This document shows positions 1 to 54,400 of a stretch of 64,000 nucleotides of DNA, piece after piece. A program made the position numbers and the translations under genes. The stretch comes from Brachyhypopomus gauderio (lineage: Eukaryota; Chordata; Actinopteri; Gymnotiformes; Hypopomidae), in contig NW_027506972.1 in assembly GCF_052324685.1 (NCBI RefSeq), positions 57,501 to 121,500 on the forward strand. The letters are read 5' to 3'. How positions within the stretch are numbered: the first letter of the stretch is position 1; each line of letters opens with the position of its first letter. The notes beneath the pieces were generated by a model. It made no database searches, was not told the origin of the DNA, and saw only the letters and a list, made by a program, of their open reading frames with translations.

Positions 1-7181
<7,181 letters not shown>

Positions 7182-22800: not shown

Positions 22801-22810
22801 GTGTTTTGCT
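19328..22810. other. Intergenic region downstream of hmgcl
   Basis: No coding exon recognised. It contains a (CA)n tract at 19748-19800, AATAAA hexamers near 20468 and 20974, the hmgcl 3' UTR (end not determined), a (GTTT)n repeat near 21296-21325 and otherwise unremarkable AT-rich sequence. Confidence 0.5.
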
Positions 22811-23662
22811 ACGGTGGCCCTGAAAGTCCATCGCGCTTGAATGTAAAAACACGCTGGTAATACGCGAAGCAAATTCATCAAAATGACAACGAGTGCGCTA
22901 CATTTCAGAAACACAACACAACGGAAGTGTTTATGGACAGATTATTTTATGCAGGGACTAAGTTTTTAGCCATAAACAATTGTATTGTACAGTGTCTCAT
23001 TACATTGAACATAAATAGTAAAGCTCTTTTAAATGTAGCTAGGTAGGTAATTGAGCCTGAAAAAGATTTAAGTCTTAGTTTTCGTCTAAACAGCTAGTTG
23101 GTTATCTAGTTCCATTTAAAGAGCTTTACTAATTCTGTCCAGTTGTGCCAAATTCCCCTCGTTTGCACACAAATAAAGACGCTACAGATGATATTCAGGA
23201 GTATTATTTCAACACCCTTGTTGAACATAGAGACGTGCTTTATATGGAATAGCCTATACATCCATATGTCAACAAAATTTAAAAATACATTAATTAATTA
23301 TAAGATGTGATTTTAACTTGGTAAATTGAGCACTCTAGATAATTAGACACAATTGGGGGATATTTGGCAAAAATCAGGTTGTACGTAAGATGTAGCTATA
23401 AGATGTAAGGTTGTCAGTAATGATGAGGAACAAAGTAATACTGCAAAGTCCTGTGGTCAGAGGTGAACTTTGATATAGCAAATATGTTACTGCTCCAGTA
23501 TGGAAGAAAATCTCACCAGACTTTGAATTTGTATTTGAAGCATTGAATTTGTAGCTCTGAATTTTTTTGCACCGAAATTATGCATCTGAATTTTGTTGCT
23601 TTTGAATTTAATGCTTGAACTTTTATTATTTATGGTTAATAAAATACAATGAAAAAAAATTC

Positions 23663-23915
23663 AAGCAGGGTAATCATGTTGTTTTAGAACTGTCTCTGTG
23701 GGGTAATGGTTAGTGAAGAGGGCTTAAAACAAAATGGACCTTGGTTTGATTCCACTGACTATCTATGTATGTATGTATGTATGTATGTAATACAATTATA
23801 ATAACAATTTGCTTGACAGTCACAGGCATCAAACCAAGGTCCATTTTGTTTGAAGCCCTCTTTGCTAACCATTACCCCATGGAGACAGTTCTAAAACAAC
23901 ATCATTACCCTGCTT
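23663..23915. repeat. Near-perfect hairpin with tRNA-like arms
   Basis: Two 88-bp arms (23663-23750 and 23828-23915) are inverted copies with few mismatches around a 77-bp loop that contains (ATGT)n. Each arm carries a GGGTAATGGTTAGTG block and GGTTTGATTCC, which resemble pol III A and B boxes, so the structure looks like two head-to-head tRNA-derived repeats. Confidence 0.75.
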
Positions 23916-23996
23916 AATGAAGACAGCTCAGAAAGAAAACTACTTGCCTGGTAATAAACGAATGTAATGATTTTATGATAAATATAATATCATAAG

Positions 23997-24206
23997 CGCA
24001 CACACACTACTTTTTATTGAACAGAGACACAGACTCAGGGAGAATTTGTCAGGGACTGCCAATTTACCTAATCTCCATGTTTTTTTACTGTGGGAGGAAA
24101 CCCACGCAGACACAGGGAGAACATGGAAACTCCACTCAGATAGGGACTTGAACCCAAGACCCCAGTGCTGAGAGGCAAATGTGCTAACCACCAAGCCACC
24201 GTGTTG
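23997..24206 (-). mobile_element. tRNA-derived SINE (second family)
   Basis: The minus strand reads GGTGGCTTGGTGGTTAGC (A-box region), then GGGTTCAAGTCC (B box), then a body with GTGGGTTTCCTCCCACAG, ending in a TTCAATAAAAAG tail. It is inserted within the left arm of the P-like element. A tail-only relative is at 5705-5795. Confidence 0.75.
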
Positions 24207-25422
24207 CTTTAGTGTTTTAGTTTGGAGCAAAAGGGACTAAAGAATTAAAAACAGTATGAACACACTTCAGTTCCTATGCTGATAGATTCTGGATATTTCC
24301 CAGTTACCCATTACTTATGTAGGTAAATCAGTACAATGTAATATATTCCTTTAAGGTAGCACCAAAAAAGGTGCAAGCAACAAAGAGCCAAACCAGGAGT
24401 CGCAACTGTTACGTGTTTCCTTAACGTTAGTTAATTATTGTTAATGTGTTACTTCATGTGTTGTTCATGGTAACTAATGCATTACTTCACGTTAGTAAGT
24501 AAACACTTAATGTAAAGTGTTATCAAAACATTTAACACCCATGGATCAGTGTGTCTTTGTTTGGATATAGATAATGCTGTGCTATTTGCTGTGATGGATA
24601 ACTAAAGATTAGTCCTTATTTACGCACAGAAACGGAAATGGCAAATATCATCTGTAGCGTCTTTATATGCGTAAATTCATTCATCGTAATGAGAGCCTGT
24701 TTGTGAGGGGATTTATGATTCACTGTCCAGGAAGCTCAATCAGACTTTGACATGTTGTTCATTCCCGTATCTGTGTGTCTGCCCCTCAGCAGAGCCATAT
24801 AGAGAGAGTCGCCACAACAGAAGTTCAAAATGCTTGATGGTCACGTGATTCACGGAGGCTTCAGATAGTTCTAGGAAGTTCAGTTTGAGCACATAAACAC
24901 AGAGACAGAACTGCGATTTGAGGATTATTGTGAACATATATCGACCAACTTTAGGCTAATGTTAGAGCACATTGCTGTTTAATGCTTTGATTGTTTTATA
25001 ATTGTTATATATTACGTTCATTTATATATTTAGAGGGACAGGAAAGGGTGAGAAATTCAGATTAGATTAATTTTCTGACATGAACATATCTTTAAATCAT
25101 GGTGATTTCTGTAATCCCATAGTATTGGGCACCTAAGTAATCTAAATGACTAATGTACATTTTCTGACAGAAGGAAAATTTTCTTTGACTTCATTGTGCA
25201 GAAATATGCTTTAAGAGGGTACATTAAAACACATTACATTTACATCCTGACAGTATATGACATTAAAATACATTGATAAATTATATATATCTTGTCTTTT
25301 TAATACACACTTATTTACAGCAATTAATTCATTAAATAAATCTCTAATAATCTCAAATATGAATATCATGTCAAGCAGTTTTTCTGTGTCCTTTCCTCCG
25401 TGTTGTTAGTGTAGTGTCCACC

Positions 25423-26141
25423 ATGGTTTGCTGTGCTGCATGGAGATGCTCCAATTGATCAGAGAAAGGAGCAAAAATTTATGGTTTCCCCACTGATACT
25501 GAGAAGAGAAAAAAAATGGTCTCAACTAAGCAGGAGCAATCTTACCCTCACTAAAGATTACAACAGCAAATATATGAGAGGTAATCATCAAACACTGCAT
25601 TTGAACTTTTCACAATAAACACACTATTGGAAAGCTTAATGCCTGATTTATTAAAATACAGAATAGTGAACAAAAAAAAAAAAAATCAAAGACTGCAGAC
25701 AGACTCGGGTGCAGGGTGAGGGTGCTATCTAGTTGCAGGCTCCATTGAATCCCCTATGGTTCTTTGGCTTAAAGAGAGAGAGGAGAAAAAGACAGGAGAA
25801 AATGATTATTATGAGTATTGATGTGATATGAATTTGAACTTGTTGCACATCCTTGGTTGTTTTTTATATGTGTAATGAGTGTATACGTATCCAGTAAGTG
25901 TTCTCTAATACTGTGTATTCACCCACTATGGGATATGTATATGGGTAGACAAAACTGAGTTGTCATGTGTGAGGAGTAAACTCACATCACTCTGCAGGCA
26001 CATTTTGAGGCAGACCAGTTCATCAAAACCAAACAGGGCAAGACTAGGCTGAGAGCAGATGCTGTTCCCACCATTTTTTGCATCGCCCCGCACTCAGAAA
26101 GAGGAAGCCCCCTGCACTACGATGCACCACTGGACCTGTAA
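25423..26141 (+). pseudogene. Broken THAP domain of a transposase
   Basis: The first exon-like piece is 25423-25583. It begins at an ATG in a good Kozak context, then reads VCCAAWRCSN, a TGA at 25456-25458 where THAP proteins normally have Arg (a single CGA-to-TGA change would explain it), and on to KIYGFPTDTEKRKKW. A donor-like GGTAATC follows. The second piece, after a CTGCAG acceptor near 25998, reads HFEADQFIKTK from 26001 and the THAP hallmark AVPTIF at 26061-26078. It stops with TAA at 26139-26141. As read, the junction is off by one base and the expected CSxHF cysteine is not seen. THAP is the C2CH zinc DNA-binding domain of P-type transposases and THAP proteins. No catalytic region follows. 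Confidence 0.8.
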
Positions 26142-27327
26142 AGACAGGGCCCACAGCTGCTGATCACAGCTATAGTGTTGACACAGGTATAAGTATGAAC
26201 TCCTAATAATTATATTATTTTGTTAAGTGATACTCCAAAATGGATATCCTCATTTTACCTCCTCGACCCAACACACTCTACAATCACACTCAAATGTTAT
26301 ATTTAACCAATACTAGCTACCCCGCAAAAACATCGCGTTTAGGTGAAATGGCATTAAGAGAGGAATTTACTATTAATAGGCTGTCAGTCGTTAATGTGAA
26401 ATCTCACTAACCGTATTCGCGTTGTCTTAGCATAGATTTAGTTCCCTAAATCTGCTTATTAAGAGGTGGATAATTCACTAAAATGCTTTAATGCACATTT
26501 TAATGCACATGTTAATTTGATTCTGATGTCCTTATAATACACAATCAGATTTTTTAAGCGTACTAACCTGTAAAAGTGTATCACAGATGGTCCACTGCTC
26601 CAGTTTGACTGCGCTGCTCGTATTTGCTGCTAACTTCCGGGAACTATTGACAGGCTTCACGATCCGCCATTGCTGTAAAAAACTGGTCCATTGGAGTGAA
26701 CGGAGATGTCGCGACTCTCTCTCTATAGGGATCTGCCCCTCAGGTACAATTTTTCTAAAGAGCTAAATGCTTTTAAATGTAGCTAGCTTGGCATTTAGAC
26801 AGAAAATAAGGCTTAAAAACCCTGATAAAGATCCCATTTAACTTAGTTTATGAGTTTTACTATTTAAGTTATGTTCAACGTAATGAGTAATGACTATAAC
26901 ACTAAAAACCACAAACCGTAAAAAAAAAAACTGACAAAAACTGACCGTCTGACAAAAAACAAGAACACTCTGTCATACGCGAACGTACGGGGGGGGGGGG
27001 GGAGTGTAAAATGGACACAGCAAAAGAAAAAAAACCGACGGATTTTAAGTGTGCAGAAACAGTCTAAATACTAACCTTGAACTAACCTAGTGAAAACCGA
27101 GACATTGATTTTTTTTTTTTTTTGCCGGGACCGAATATTAAAAAGAAGGAAAACCGGGACAGGTGGCAACACTAGTTCCTACAGAAACACTTCCGTTGCG
27201 TTGTGGCTGGATTTGCACTTTCTGAAATGCAGTGCACTCGTTGTCATTTTAATTAATTTGCTTCACGTATTAGCAGCGTGTTTTTCCGTTGCAGCGCGAT
27301 GGACTTTCGGGGCCACCGTATTTTGCT

Positions 27328-45087: not shown

Positions 45088-48000
45088 TCACTCCTCTTCA
45101 CTCTCGTTTTCGGGGTCGAAGTCCAAGTCTGCGCGCGTTTTGCGCTCCTCTCTCGTGTCTTCTTCACCTTCGTGAGCTTTCCTGTCCATCACATCCATCA
45201 GTTCATCTTTCTCCTCATCCTCCTCCCAGCTCTGTCAGAAGGAACACGTAAATGTATTTGGGGTTTTTTTTTGTTGTTGTTGTTGTTATTTGGTAATGTA
45301 ATATCAGGAAGCCATAATGAGGGGAGCAGTGAAGTAACTAATTGTAAAATGGCCAAACTTTCCTAAAATCATTACAAAGACTGAGCCTGAAACCCGTGTG
45401 AGTGTGTGAGAGAGAGCGCGAGAGTGTGTGAGTGTGAGAGAGTGTGTCTCTCTTACATCAGAGTCATCCTCAGGGAGTCCTTCATCTCCTGAGCCTTCAT
45501 CCTCATCTGAGGAATCTGCAAAAACACACAGAGAATTAAAACACTAAAGCATGAGTGTTTCCCTGACGAAGACTAGCATATCAAACCCCACTGACGAAGA
45601 TGAAGACTACTGTACCTAAGCCCACTGAGGAAGACTACTGTACCTAAGCCCACTGAGGAAGACTAGCGTGTGTAATGCTCTGTAAGGGCTCCGTGACCTC
45701 TTACCCTCCTCATACACCAGTTTGGCCATGTGATCCAGGTCCTCTTCTCTGTGGGAACTGCTGCTTGACGCCACCTAGTGGACATTATGAAATAGAGGAA
45801 TTGGTCTTAACTCGTGTCCAAGGAAGCATTCACCATTTGACTTTCTGTGCACGGCCAAATTAATTTTTTCTCAGTTAAGAAACGCATCTTTTCAAGATGA
45901 AACGTGAAAAGTGATTTGGAAACAGAAGGAGAATAATGGTCGATATGTTACTCCATTACTCCAGAGAACACGCCTCCACTACTCTAAGAGTCCAGTGGCA
46001 GCGTGCTTTACACCACTGCACTTGGTGATGTATGGCTTGGATGCAGCTGCTCGACCATGAACATGAATCTCTCTGTTCACTGTTCTTAAGGTAATCTGAA
46101 GGCCACAGGAAGTTTGGATGTCTGTAGTGATTAACACTATGTGCTTCATCATCCGCTGACCCCACTCCATCAGTTTACGTGACCTACCACTTTGTGGCTG
46201 AGATGGGTGAGCGAACACTTTTGACAATAGTTTGCGTATGTGTGTGTACACACACACACACACACTAAACATCATCGTTCACAGTCCAAAACGGTCAGTC
46301 TGCAGTACTGCAGAAATGTTTAACAGCGCTGTTTACAGAATTCGACAGATGCATTAAAAACCTGACTGACCAATCAGAACATCTCTGTCAAGGTCATGAT
46401 GCAAGAGTCATGAGCACCATGGTAACAGAACAAGTAATCTTGGTGTGAATAAGCATTACGGTAGTTACAAGGTTTTCTTTATTATTCAAATATAACTGCA
46501 TGAATAAATGTTAATATATGGAGGTGTGGTCCAGGTGGGTCAGGCTCCACAGTGTGGCAGGTCCAGGTGTGCGGTACCCGAGTGCAGGTGTGCGGGTGCG
46601 GTACCTGAGTCATGAGCAGGTAGAGTTTTCCGTTGAGTCTGGTGAGCTGCTGGTAGACCTTCACTCTGCTCTCCATCATGTGGTACAGCGTCCCCAACTG
46701 AGTCACCAGGTCTGGCAGCTGTATCACAGTGAACACAACGATTAGTGAGGAAAGAGATGTTAACACACTTTTTAGAGAAAGTAGTTTCTTCACAACTCTC
46801 TTCCTTCTTACAAACAGAACATGTCAGTTATGTCAGTCTGGATTTAGACCCAATCACAGCACTGAAACGGCACTGACTAAAGTACTGAACAATCTCTTAA
46901 TATCCTCTGATAAAGGACACATTTCTTTTCTCATACTGCTAGACCTCAGTGCTGCTTTTGACACCATTAATCATAATATTCTACTTAATAGGCTGGAGAC
47001 ACTCATTGGCATAAGAGGTCAAGCACTCTCCTGGTTCAGGTCCTACCTGACAGATCGTTCGTTACCAATTTGTACGAGTAAATAACGAATGCTCAGAGCA
47101 TACTAAGGTAAAATATGGCGTCCCACAAGGATCTGTACTGGGCCCCATATTATTCTCATTATATATGCTAACACTGGGCACTATCATTCGTAGGCATGGT
47201 ATTAGATTCCATTGCTATGCAAATAATACTCAGTTGTATATATCTTCTAATCTGGATGATATCACTACTACTCAAGATTCAGAACTGCGTCCAGGACATA
47301 AAAAACTAGATGGCGTCTAATTTTCTTCAACTAAATTTCGATAAGAATGAGGTGCTGATTCTTGGACCCAAAGCTGCTAGAAGCAATTGGGCTGATATTC
47401 CTCTTACCCTAGATGGTTTTTCAGTAACACCTAAATCTACCGCAAAAAGTTTAGGTGTCACTATTGATTCTGATCTTTCATTTGACGGACATGTATGCAA
47501 TGTCATTAAGGCTGCCTTTTCCATTTACGTAATATCACCAAGCTGAGACACTTACTTTCATTAGCTGATGCAGAGAAGCTGGTCAATGCTTTTGTCTAGT
47601 CAAGATTGGACTACTGTAATGGTCTAATTGGATGCTCTAAACAGTCCATAAAGAAGCTACAATTTGTACAAAATGCCGCAGCTAGAGTCCTAACTAAGGC
47701 TAGGAACTTCGATCATATTAGTCCCACTCTCGCCGCATTACATTGGCTGCCGATTAAATATTGAATTTGAAATTCTTCTGTTAACCTATAAGGCGTTAAA
47801 TGGTCTTGCCCCACAATATCTGAGTGAACTCATTGCTTACTACAACCCATCTCGCCCCTTTGTGCTCCCAAAATGCTGGATTTCTCCAAGTTCCAAAAAT
47901 TAGTAAAACTACAGCCGGAGGCAGAGCTTTCTCCTTTAAAGCCCCTCAGTTATGGAATAGCCTTCCAGCTCCAATCAGAGATTCTGACACAGTTCCAATC

Positions 48001-48429
48001 TTTAAATCTAGACCTATTTAATCAAGACACCTATTCTATTAAATCTAGACACCTATTTAATCAAGCCTTCAGTTAATATTTCCCTTGTAAGGTGTGGCCC
48101 CCCCCCCAATATGTTAGAACTTTAGAAACTTTTGTCCACAAATACGGACTTGTGCTAAAGGGCCACCAATGGAGGATGGGTTCCCTTTTGAGTCTTGGTC
48201 CTCCCGAGGTTTCTTCCTAATCCCCACCATCATAGGGAGTTTTTCCTCACCACTGTCTCCTTTGGCTCATTAGGGATCTGGACCCATACGATTGTAAAGC
48301 TGCTTTGTGACATGTTGTAAAAAGCGCTATATAAATTAATTTGACTTGACTCGACACACACACACACACACACACACACACCTCCCCGTACCCCCGTCAC
48401 ACACACATACCCCACACACACACCCTTAC

Positions 48430-48464
<35 letters not shown>

Positions 48465-51400
48465 ACCGATGACAAGTAGGACGTGTGCTGAGTCAACACA
48501 GCCTTCAGCCACTGCACAATCAGCACTGCCCTGTAGGACACAGAGATTCAACACCACACACAGGTTCAACACCACACACAGGTTCAACACCACACACAGG
48601 TTCAACACCACACACCCAGTGGGTATTTTCAGAACCAAACAGAAACGGCTGAACACAAAGTTTTAACTTACGTGAAAGGATGGCCTTGTAACCTCCTGGA
48701 CAACTACAACACACACACAATCAGAGTGGGTAAACACACAGGTAAACAGACGCAAGTCATCACTAACACATGGCTGCCAGCAGAGGGCGGTGCACTGTGA
48801 CCTCACCTCCTCCAGCAGGGGCAGGACGGCAGGCGGGGGTATCCTAGCAACAGTATTCCTAATCAGGGGCTCCCTCTTCATTTGGAAGATTTTCTAGTAA
48901 GGGAAGAAAATAACATGAATGCATGTGAGACATCCTAACACCACCCTAACCCCAACAAACCCCACCCCTAACACCAACCCACCCCACCCTAACCCCACCC
49001 TAACCAACCCCACCCCTAACACCACCCCACCCCACCCCTAACCCCACCCCACCCCACCCCTAACCCCACCCTAACCAACCCCACCCCTAACACCACCCCA
49101 CCCCACCCCTAACACCAACCCACCCCACCCCTAACACCACCCTAACCCCAACAAACCCCACCCTTAACACCAACCCACCCCACCCTAACCAACCCCACCC
49201 CTAACACCAACCCACCCCACCCTAACACCAACCCACCCCACCCCTAACACCACCCTAACCCCAACAAACCCCACCCTTAACACCAACCCACCCCACCCTA
49301 ACACCAACCCACCCCACACCTAACCCCACCCCTAACACCAACCAACCCCACCCTAACCCCAACCCACCCCAACCCACCCCACACCTAACCCCACCCCTAA
49401 CACCAACCAACCCCACCCTAACCCCAACCCACCCCAGAAGTGGTAGAACCGTGTTGTATCTGGCGTCACACAGCCAGGTCCTCGTGAGCCAACTGGCTCT
49501 TGGATTATGAGAAGGAACCAGAATTTGTTCAAACATACGTGGAGGCGCGAGCTTGGCCTTTTATTTTACACACTGCAATTTTCTTTAAGCAAACGTATTT
49601 AGTCAAGATATTATTTTTCAAGCACTTTCTCAAAAAATTCCATCCAGCAGTTTCCAAGCCTGGAAAGCAAAACATTAAAATTCACCCGTACGCAGCCTGA
49701 GGATATTCAACTTCAACTCCCCTGGGGTAGCAGTAACGTTTCAGGTGTGAAGGCCTTTAAATGTGAACACTGCCAACACTCCTAATTTGACACAGTGGGC
49801 TCCATCATTCCAGGAGCTGTCGGGGCATTTAAGGGGGTCAGCGCGGTCACTCACGTTGAGCATCTTGTTGTCCCTGCTCTCCAACGCTTGAACCAGCAGC
49901 ACCGCACAATTGTCCACCTGCAGAGAGGCGGAGACGCCCTCTGACTCCGCCTTGTCACTAGACACACCCAACTCAATGTGCTGCAGTCTCTCCTCTATAG
50001 ACATCTGGGGGGGTGAAATGCAGAAACATTAATCCATCACCGTTTCAGAAACATGTTAACTTGAATTTGGGCGCCATGTGCAACAATCGTGTCCAGTCAT
50101 ACCTCTTTTGTACTGGGTCCTTTCTTCCTCTTCTCTGATTGGCTGGGTGTTGCTCTGATTGGTGCCTGATGTCCAGGAAGTCCTGGTATTAGAACTTTAC
50201 TCTTCTGGTCATTTACAATGGGAGTCTTTACCTGGGAGGGTCAGAGGTCACCAGTCAAACACTTCTACAGGTGCGTGAATAGCTCTCCTCCATCTCTGCT
50301 CCCCTTAATCAATGGCAGGTAGTTAACAATCACCAGGGGCGTGCACCACGTTTCAGCAGGACACTTGTTCATATGGATCATCTGAATGTGTGACTAGACT
50401 CAAGACTAATGAAAAAGACACAAAAGTGGATTTGTTACCTTGGAGACTGCAGCATCAACAGACAGCGAGAGTGCAGTGTGTAAATCTCGGACCAGACACA
50501 CATGCCTTTCTGACGTGTTTATGGGCTGAGGGAACACACACACACACACACACACTCAATCATGCCAGCAATGGAAGAAACTATAAACCAGACCTCCTCA
50601 CCAAGCTCCACCCCTTCCCACTAAGCCCCACCCTTGTGGCAATTCCCCCAACACGAGTCATGGGCTGTCAGAACCCGCGTCTCTGGAGAACCAGCATAGC
50701 TCTTCTCAGCTTCCATGGGGCCCACACCCCGCCCCCTGAGAACCTCACACCACCCCCCCGAGAACCTCACCACACTCTCCAGCACAGGCTGCAGGTGGCT
50801 GCCATAGGCCAGCAGGAGGCGCTGTCTGTCCGCACATAGAGAGGCAGCGAGCAGAGGCACAGGGACGGGCGTGTCCCCCGCCCTCACGCCAGACACCTGC
50901 AGCGAACACACTGGAGACAGGGGCTTCTTACACGGCCTGGGGACAGGGGAGGAGAGATATGGAGAGAGAACACGAGTGTGAGGGAAGCAGAGAGAGAGAG
51001 AGAGACAGGGAGGGAAGGAGAGAGAGAAGGGGAGAGAGAGAGAGACAGACAGACAGGGAAGGAGAGAGACAGACAGACAGGGAAGGAGAGAGACAGACAG
51101 ACAGGGAAGGAGAGAGACAGACAGGGAAGGAGAGACAGACAGGGAAGGAGAGAGACAGACAGGGAAGGAGAGAGACAGACAGGGAAGAGAGAGACAGACA
51201 GGGAAGAGAGAGACAGACAGGGAGAAGAGAGGCATTCTGTCACTGAAACAGTAATCACAGGAAGAGATCAATCCATTCTTGCTCTGGGCTTTCTGGCACA
51301 TTTCACTTCTCTACATGTGGCTGTCCAACACTTCACAAAAACACAGTCGTGCCAGGAACAGCAGAAGCCAAATAAAGCCACAGTGGGGAGACGTTCCAGG

Positions 51401-54400
51401 ACCCGACCCACGGGGGACCAGACCCACAGGACTTTAATGCCTTACTGAATGGCTGTGTCTGTCACTCACCCGTTGAGAAAGTGCTCAAAGAGGTGAAGCT
51501 GCCCGTCCTTACACACCACTGCTAACCGCACTGCCTGCAGAACAAAACAGAGCACACACACACACACACAAAGTTTAAGTGTAGTTACAAACAGGAGGTG
51601 GATTAAGGGCAGTGTCATTTCCAAACGGAATATGCTCATCCAAGCGGTCACGCCCCCAAACGTGCTGCGTCAGCCGCATGGCTGGGAGGGTCAGCACACC
51701 TGGGGCTGACCGAGCTCATTAGTCAACACAGGTACCGATAACTGCACCTGCGTCAGCCCAGGGTCAGGGTACATTTACATTTACGGCATTTAGCAGACGC
51801 TCTTATCCAGAGCGACTCACAAAGTGTAAGGGTACACTTACTCCAGTTGATGTTTACATTGGTCTAGTCACAAAACATGTTTGGAGTTGACGTGTTCACA
51901 TTTTTCTACCACGTCACCCAATGCTAACTGTGAGCCACAATCGGGGGGCGCTAGTATATGGCAACAGGTGATGCCACGGGGGAACGCAGAGTGCGATTAG
52001 CGGGGACGCTAGTGAACATTCCAGGAGAATAGTAGACTACTATGATTGTGAACGTAGCAAAACGGTGACTGAAGCTACAGCAGCGACTAAAATAATAGCA
52101 ACATAATAGCAACAGCTTAGTAGCTTTCACACGGCAAGCCTTTCGTGACACGCTCTTCCCTGTCGTCTTCTCTCACGATAATGTCGCGCTGAAAAACATT
52201 GACCAGTCTTGTCAATATATGGAGCCAGATCCGTAAACGTGAGAAGCCACTTTCGCCATTCCAGATGGCTCAGTCAAAACCATTACGTCTTAATGAACAA
52301 ATAAATACATCAGCGGCGAAAATGAGAATAAAAATATACCAGGGTTCACGTGTTTTTATTTTGTCACAAAAGGCTTCCAACATGGGCTAAAGCACAGGGT
52401 AGACTCTCAAATGATAAGTGTTTACAACTTCATCTTCAACCTTTTCAGCCCTGGCGCGAATGTTATCCTCACATATCCCTGGATTCACCAGTTAGAACTA
52501 CAGAGACACTAGAAAAAAAATCTTGTGTCTTATTTTATGTCACCATTAACTACACAGGGTTGATGCGAACTTAATAGGCCTATCTATCTACCTGTTTTTC
52601 ACAAGAGCTTGTGGCTAGCTCTGACAGTGATCAATGCAAGCTGTAGTGAATGGCAGTAACTTTGTTTTACCGCAAAATATGAAAACTATTGAAACCATTA
52701 ATCACCCAATTAAATCCACTGGGAAATGTACGATCTGGTAAATGTAGCGGTAAATGTATGCTCTTTTGCCTTGTTCCCGGCGTAGATAGCACTAGGTTCT
52801 GCTTCACAACATGAATGAAGAACGTTCGTATGATTTGAACGCAATTTGGCCTCTATGATGGTTCTGACGGAAATTGCTGGCCACTGTGCCATTGAAATAG
52901 CCGATTTCGGAAGTGCTCCGTTTGCTTAAGTAAATATGATAATATATATATTAGGGGTGGGTATCACCACTAATTTTCCAGTTCGATTCCGATTCACAAG
53001 GTCCCAATTCAATTCGATCCGATTCAATATCGATTATCAATATTGAATCGGATCGAATTGAATCGGGACCTTGTAGGGAAATTTCAGTTACAATAAAAAG
53101 TGTAGTTTGAATGTGAAATGTTGTAATGATACAAGGAACACTCAAACTTTATTAAAATGCATTAAGATAGTGTTTATACTGTGATTAGTGTTTTTTTATA
53201 TCAATTAATGCACACTTCCACATAGCTCCTTTACCAGAAAAGGCATTGAAAGCGGTTTAGAACAGCCCTTTAAAGTGCAAATTACGTTTTTTTTTTACAT
53301 GTAACAAACATTTATGAACATAGTTCTGAATATTGTAATATTGTAAAAAGATTTATTCATGACTGCTTGTAAATTGTCAAATTTTTCTGCAAGAAAAGGA
53401 GCTGATTTTGAGGAGTGAGACAGCTCAATTGTGCAGTAACAATATCGCCAGCTGTTGAAAAAACTTCACAGCTTTATACTGGACACGTCGCGACCGGCGT
53501 GAGGGTCCGCGCACCGAAAATGACGTAATCGCGGTGGCTCCGCCCGTGCCCTGTCGCTTTGCGAGGTTGTGCACCTCTCGAATATTGTAACTTCGCGCGC
53601 CGCGCTTCAGCGCAATGATCAAAGTCACATTTGCAGGGTTCATACACCTAAACAAGGTGGAATTAAAGCACGTCACGCGATATAAAACACGAGATGTTAA
53701 AATGGTACGCATATGCGGGGAAAATTAGCCAATTCTAAAGATCGATCTCAGGTTTAATAAATCGATATCGAATCATTCAAATGAAGATCAATTTGAATTG
53801 AAAAATCTATTTTTTAAACACACCCTAATATAACATATCTCCCGAACCCCCGTAGGTTTGCGTAAGTCACCCTTTTCAACTTCAAAACGGCGAATTTCGC
53901 CGAAAGGTGACAGATTTTCATGCCTGCACACTATTGTCTAGCTAGCTTACCTAGCTAAACAAGCTACAGCTAAAGGTTTGGGAGGGCTCAGAGCCAAAAT
54001 CACTTCTATTAGAAACCTCCAGTTAGCCAAACTTATCAAAGGCAGAGTAAAGGTGGATCGTCAAGATGTGTGTGGGGAAAGATGTGGTCCAGTGAAGGAA
54101 AATGTCTGCAGTTCTGCTGTTTGACCACCCAGAGGGTGTTTGATCTAGACAGGGCAACGTAGAACACGAGAACTCTGCCACACCAACAGACGGGCCTTCT
54201 CACCTCGTCCTTGCTGCTGGATGTCTGTAGGTCGATGTGTCGTGGTTCGTCCGTCAGGGTGAAGGACACCACCGCATTCTTGTCTTTGCCATCAGACCGC
54301 ACCTGCCTGTGGAGCGAAAGAGCAGATGAACGGCACTGTACCAGTCATTCCTGGTGATTACAGAACCGGTCCAACTGGGAGCAGCATTGACATCTACAGC

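Follow-up and report, generated by a model that had tools for sequence, protein, structure and literature searches.

Among the P-superfamily transposons described from fish, zebrafish Pdre2 is a full-length element with an 8-bp target-site duplication, ends that start with CA, and a place in the THAP9-type transposase family (PMC10983969). Medaka Izanagi is a non-autonomous P element which, as described, contains THAP exons only, and it too has an 8-bp duplication and CA-starting ends; the same source quotes YARNG as a P motif (PMC2820524). Galileo, a member of the P superfamily from Drosophila, is described with long arms and with duplications that are mostly 7 bp and rarely 8 bp (PMC4168063). 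In the IS3EU superfamily, complete families have been reported with TA..TA termini and duplications usually of 6 bp (PMC10045372), and fungal families with TAYGG..CCRTA ends, 6-bp duplications, and repeats of over 30 bp (PMC12730594). IS3EU has also been annotated in killifish genomes (PMC12763893). For non-autonomous elements, the Repbase rule as reported calls for equal duplication length and for positions 1 to 11 to align with at most one mismatch (PMC4455052).

We describe here the region 22810-27320 of a 64-kb window (the whole stretch of DNA that was analyzed). This region most likely consists of two dead cut-and-paste transposon relics, a small P-like one nested in an arm of a larger element of a different kind. 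The nesting of 24790-26735 within 22810-27320 is, taken by itself, highly probable, and the superfamily call for each element, IS3EU for the outer and P for the inner, is likely in its own right; together these put the whole reading, nested and with both superfamilies named, at a probability of about 0.6.

Ends and flanks of the outer element

The initial annotation had reported inverted ends, and these are present, with ACGGTGGCCC at 22811-22820 and its inverted copy at 27310-27319. The 8-bp flanks GTTTTGCT and ATTTTGCT match at 7 of 8 positions, also as reported. The T/A pair lying just beyond these boundaries is inverted as well, which gives ends TACGG..CCGTA and exact 6-bp target-site duplications, TTTTGC, at 22804-22809 and 27321-27326 (both plus strand). 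The longest exact repeat shared by the flanks is 7 bp (TTTTGCT), and the outer duplication might instead be taken as these 7 bp or, if one mismatch is allowed, as 8 bp. When two places in the window are picked at random, 6/6 agreement occurs at a frequency of 5.2e-4 and agreement of at least 7/8 at 7.2e-4, and because of these frequencies the 6/6 and 7/8 readings of the flanks are equally good by rarity. TAYGG starts at 135 of the 128,000 positions on both strands of the window.

The left terminal inverted repeat, which starts with TACGGTGGCCC, covers 22810-22935 (plus strand, 126 bp), and its partner at 27182-27320 (minus strand, 139 bp) finishes with GGGCCACCGTA. The two are identical at 113 of 126 positions, with a 13-base gap (E 1.4e-30 in a self-comparison). 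No further copies of these ends were found in the 64-kb window, and the outer-end DNA pattern had 0 matches among viral contigs.

The outer element shows the TA..TA and TAYGG..CCRTA termini, the exact 6-bp duplication, and the repeats longer than 30 bp that have been described for IS3EU. Its membership in IS3EU is probable, judging from the five terminal bases, whose motif comes from fungi, and from the duplication length; the ends were compared with IS3EU over the first five positions only, short of Repbase's 11. Within a nested arrangement, the outer element could instead belong to another long-armed superfamily with 7- to 8-bp duplications, e.g., hAT, MuDR, or Zisupton. The 7-bp exact and 8-bp one-mismatch readings of the flanks would suit such an element, and Zisupton duplications are 8 bp in length. 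We nonetheless regard this as unlikely, as TACGG..CCGTA and the exact 6-bp flank fit IS3EU at all five described terminal positions.

The inner element and its THAP exons

The THAP exons are enclosed by a second inverted pair of ends, absent from the initial annotation, whose flanks carry an exact 8-bp duplication. This pair delimits a P-like non-autonomous element of 1,946 bp at 24790-26735 (plus strand), flanked by exact copies of CCCCTCAG at 24782-24789 and 26736-26743 (both plus strand). The left terminal inverted repeat lies at 24790-24816 (plus strand) and its right partner at 26707-26735 (minus strand). Aligned, they read CAGAGCCATATAGAGAGAGTCGCCACA from 24790 and CAGATCCCTATAGAGAGAGAGTCGCGACA inverted from 26735, with 24 of 27 positions identical and a 2-base gap; the end sequence of the element is CAGAGCCATATAGAGAGAGTCGC, the other end being its diverged partner. 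The ends start with CAGAG on the left and CAGAT on the right, that is, with CA as in Pdre2 and Izanagi.

The significance of this pair was assessed against random controls, which here and below were first-order sequences matched to the region in dinucleotide composition; the comparison with Izanagi ends used shuffled letters instead. In a stricter test that combined 29-base ends with exact 8-bp flanks, the inner pair scored 17.5. No other pair in the 5.4-kb region or elsewhere in the window scored as high, and the 1,000 random sequences reached at most 13.5. A looser test (12-bp ends, at most 3 mismatches, 8-bp flank) was not significant: 51 of the 300 random sequences had at least one match, and the window had 27. 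The direct repeat of the inner flanks is in fact 12 bp long, and among the five exact 8-bp parses listed, CCCCTCAG alone makes the ends match (by eye; it also ranked best in the stricter test). At up to 3 mismatches, the inner end motif occurs in the window at these two ends only, where 0.08 are expected. Similarity between the inner ends continues for ~200 bases (score 40.75 versus a random maximum of 34.2; n = 200).

Neither pair of ends has a TTAA duplication in its flanks. The initial annotation had named copies with TTAA ends, the mark of Kolobok, among the signs that would count against a P element, and Kolobok was rejected.

The two-piece THAP domain previously noted, with its AVPTIF and an in-frame TGA (25456-25458), is borne out. 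Exon 1 is degraded and runs on the plus strand from an ATG at 25423 to 25579, a right limit that is a guess from the frame; it also contains a change of frame at an A-run (25509-25516) that had gone unmentioned. Exon 2, at 25998-26099 (plus strand), carries AVPTIF plus a few residues. By itself, it matches the Pfam THAP model at E 0.00059 and 21 bits, under the cut-off of 23.9, and the two pieces of exon 1 had no Pfam match singly. When the pieces are joined and each break is filled with X, they match PF05485 at 6.8e-10 (40 bits), and their best relative among solved structures is THAP2 (1.3e-6). That search returned three THAP matches plus three antibody chains at 0.066 to 0.092; the antibody chains were taken as noise, as was a weak Pfam side match of the joined pieces to AhpC-TSA (0.083). 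The third zinc ligand of a THAP domain is expected near the exon junction, and it is not visible in the pieces of exons 1 and 2. When exon 2 was used as a protein query against viral contigs, 6 pattern matches were obtained, 0 of them confirmed.

In a Pfam scan of the six frames of 22811-27319 (E up to 1), none of the matches was to a transposase core, an integrase, or a hAT domain; neither a THAP9-type DDE core nor a hAT dimerization domain was found. The other six-frame match, to SIDD_N (E 0.14), was under its own cut-off and was taken as noise. Internal deletion would explain the missing THAP9-type core of the inner element, and the lack of an IS3EU transposase in the outer one is expected of a non-autonomous or decayed copy. 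As there is no Pfam transposase core, neither superfamily is shown by protein, and both calls are made, as likely ones, from the ends, the duplications, and the THAP remnant.

What speaks for P in the inner element is the exact 8-bp CCCCTCAG duplication, the CA start, and the THAP domain in its joined pieces. YARNG fits the left inner end and does not fit the right inner end or the outer ends; because this motif is attached to hAT, the fit was given no weight. A CAGAG start also suits hAT, and it can be counted in favor of a nested arrangement in which the inner element is a THAP-carrying hAT transposon instead of a P element. Duplications of 8 bp are likewise reported as usual for hAT (PMC12730594). 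Against such an origin stand the lack of a hAT transposase or dimerization domain in the six-frame Pfam scan and the precedent of a THAP-only remnant with an 8-bp duplication in a fish P element, as described for Izanagi (PMC2820524). We thus find a hAT origin of the inner element quite unlikely and continue to read it as P-like.

It is also important to consider a single P-superfamily element at 22811-27319, internally deleted, with an 8-bp duplication and long terminal inverted repeats in the style of Galileo, which is close to what the initial annotation proposed. A THAP domain does lie inside, the flanks match 7/8, and the arms are long; Galileo offers a precedent for such arms, and a 7-bp exact flank is present here too. 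However, the outer ends, whether read as TACGG or ACGGT, are without the CA start of Pdre2 (CATACC) and Izanagi (CAATGAG), and the THAP exons sit within a separate end pair that has its own exact 8-bp duplication. Drosophila P ends likewise begin with CA. The single-element reading, which we consider very unlikely, was set aside because a second end pair surrounds the THAP exons and the outer ends lack CA. What survives of the original claim is a decayed, THAP-bearing, P-like element with an 8-bp duplication and no core, but this is the 1,946-bp element at 24790-26735. The long arms and outer ends probably belong to a different element, whose TACGG..CCGTA ends and 6-bp duplication fit IS3EU and not the CA start of Pdre2 and Izanagi.

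Arms around the inner insertion and other features of the window

Inverted similarity had been said to reach hundreds of bases inward from the outer ends, and this is borne out, if weakly: 22936-23260 against 26744-27181 scores 59.25, versus a random maximum of 46.8 (n = 200). Within these segments, the left subterminal arm at 22996-23127 (plus strand) has an inverted match to 26766-26887 (minus strand), which lies outside the inner insertion (62.8% over 137 columns, E 8.7e-5). A deeper part of the left arm, 23167-23195 (plus strand), is complementary at 27 of 29 positions to 24644-24672 (minus strand), on the inner side of the inner insertion, with an ungapped score of 24 (at most 13 in 500 random sequences). 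The pairing of left and right arms is collinear on both sides of the inner element, and when the flanks of the inner insertion are joined, the whole arm scores 70.0 by local alignment, versus a random maximum of 51.8. As a control, the two outside flanks were compared and gave a score of 20.0 versus a random mean of 24.8, i.e., background.

The deeper right arm is convincing over 29 bases only, and the gapped score of the inner-side right arm alone (33.0) is not above the random maximum of 34.2 (n = 200). The insertion point of the inner element falls in bases without a partner in the left arm, and the empty site is not visible by alignment; when the left arm was aligned by MAFFT with the right arm in its empty-site form, nothing informative emerged past roughly the first 130 bases. 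Some 290 bases of the outer right arm (26888-27181) are homopolymer-rich and lack an obvious counterpart in the left arm; they are possibly a further insertion.

Other repeats are present within the outer element. A fold-back repeat at 23663-23915, with 101-nt arms that are 90% complementary, is probably a later insertion; by eye, it shows tRNA-like motifs. A SINE-like repeat occupies 24011-24213 on the minus strand, with the strand and the limits past 24084 set by eye. Its first part, 24011-24084, matches 5707-5787 at 86%, and the reading of this repeat as a tRNA-type SINE was made by eye. ARAGORN found no tRNA genes in the window.

Elsewhere in the window, Rfam gave one match, a UnaL2 LINE 3' element at 51780-51833 (minus strand), outside the outer element. 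By eye, 46702-47082 (plus strand) holds a LINE-like reverse-transcriptase reading frame (region 46702-51833), and other reading frames in the window resemble GALE, HMGCL, and connexins. Judged by eye from these frames and the UnaL2 element, the DNA comes from a vertebrate, most likely a teleost. A minisatellite of ~500 bp with AACCCCACCCCTAACCCCAACC-like units lies at 48934-49436. A possible hAT-like element of 682 bp at 4850-5547 (ends CAGTAGCGAACCGT / CAGTGGGGAACCGT, exact 8-bp flank AGCGGCAG) came from a loose scan in which chance matches are common.

Two probably nested relics and their relation to known elements

Both end pairs with their duplications, the THAP pieces, and the arm similarity on either side of the inner insertion are directly seen. 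What we infer is which superfamily each element belongs to, which of them inserted first, and that each was mobilized by transposase made elsewhere. First, an element of IS3EU type, its ends TACGG..CCGTA and its arms several hundred bases long, would have inserted at what is now 22810-27320, duplicating TTTTGC; its transposase gene would be absent or too decayed to recognize. Later, a short non-autonomous P-like element would have entered its right arm at 24790-26735, duplicating CCCCTCAG and retaining, of its protein, the THAP DNA-binding exons alone. The outer element is presumably the older of the two, and each may have been moved by transposase supplied from elsewhere. As read here, neither element encodes what its own mobility would require. 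That the nested pair moved jointly, an IS3EU element gaining a P-type THAP domain by insertion and then spreading as a composite family, is highly improbable.

Taken together, both elements are most likely known kinds of transposon, and the impression of a P element with long arms would, on this reading, come from taking two elements for one. The value of the locus is mainly one of annotation: to a genome that looks like that of a fish it adds two relics, one probably an Izanagi-like P element and the other probably IS3EU. Nesting, as the locus illustrates, can mimic a long-armed P element; where a THAP remnant is found beside long arms, a second end pair should be looked for before such a case is put forward as a new family of long-armed P elements.

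Compared with known systems, the outer element resembles IS3EU (IS3EU/GingerRoot) in its TACGG..CCGTA ends, its 6-bp TTTTGC duplication, and its inverted repeats of over 30 bp. It differs in having no transposase that we could find and in arms of several hundred bases, and the motif comparison is with fungal families. The inner element is like Izanagi, as that element is described, in having THAP exons without a transposase core, an 8-bp duplication, and a CA start; it is 1,946 bp long versus 1,316 bp for Izanagi, with two THAP exons recognized versus three. The match of the ends themselves to those of Izanagi is marginal, with 13 of 27 positions identical at one end (reached in 4.4% of shuffles) and 12 of 27 at the other (10%). 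With Pdre2, the inner element shares the 8-bp duplication and the CA start, whereas the 13-bp ends reported for Pdre2, CATACCTGTCAAC, differ. Finally, Galileo as described unites long inverted arms and a THAP domain in one element, whereas at this locus the two features are apparently split between two elements.
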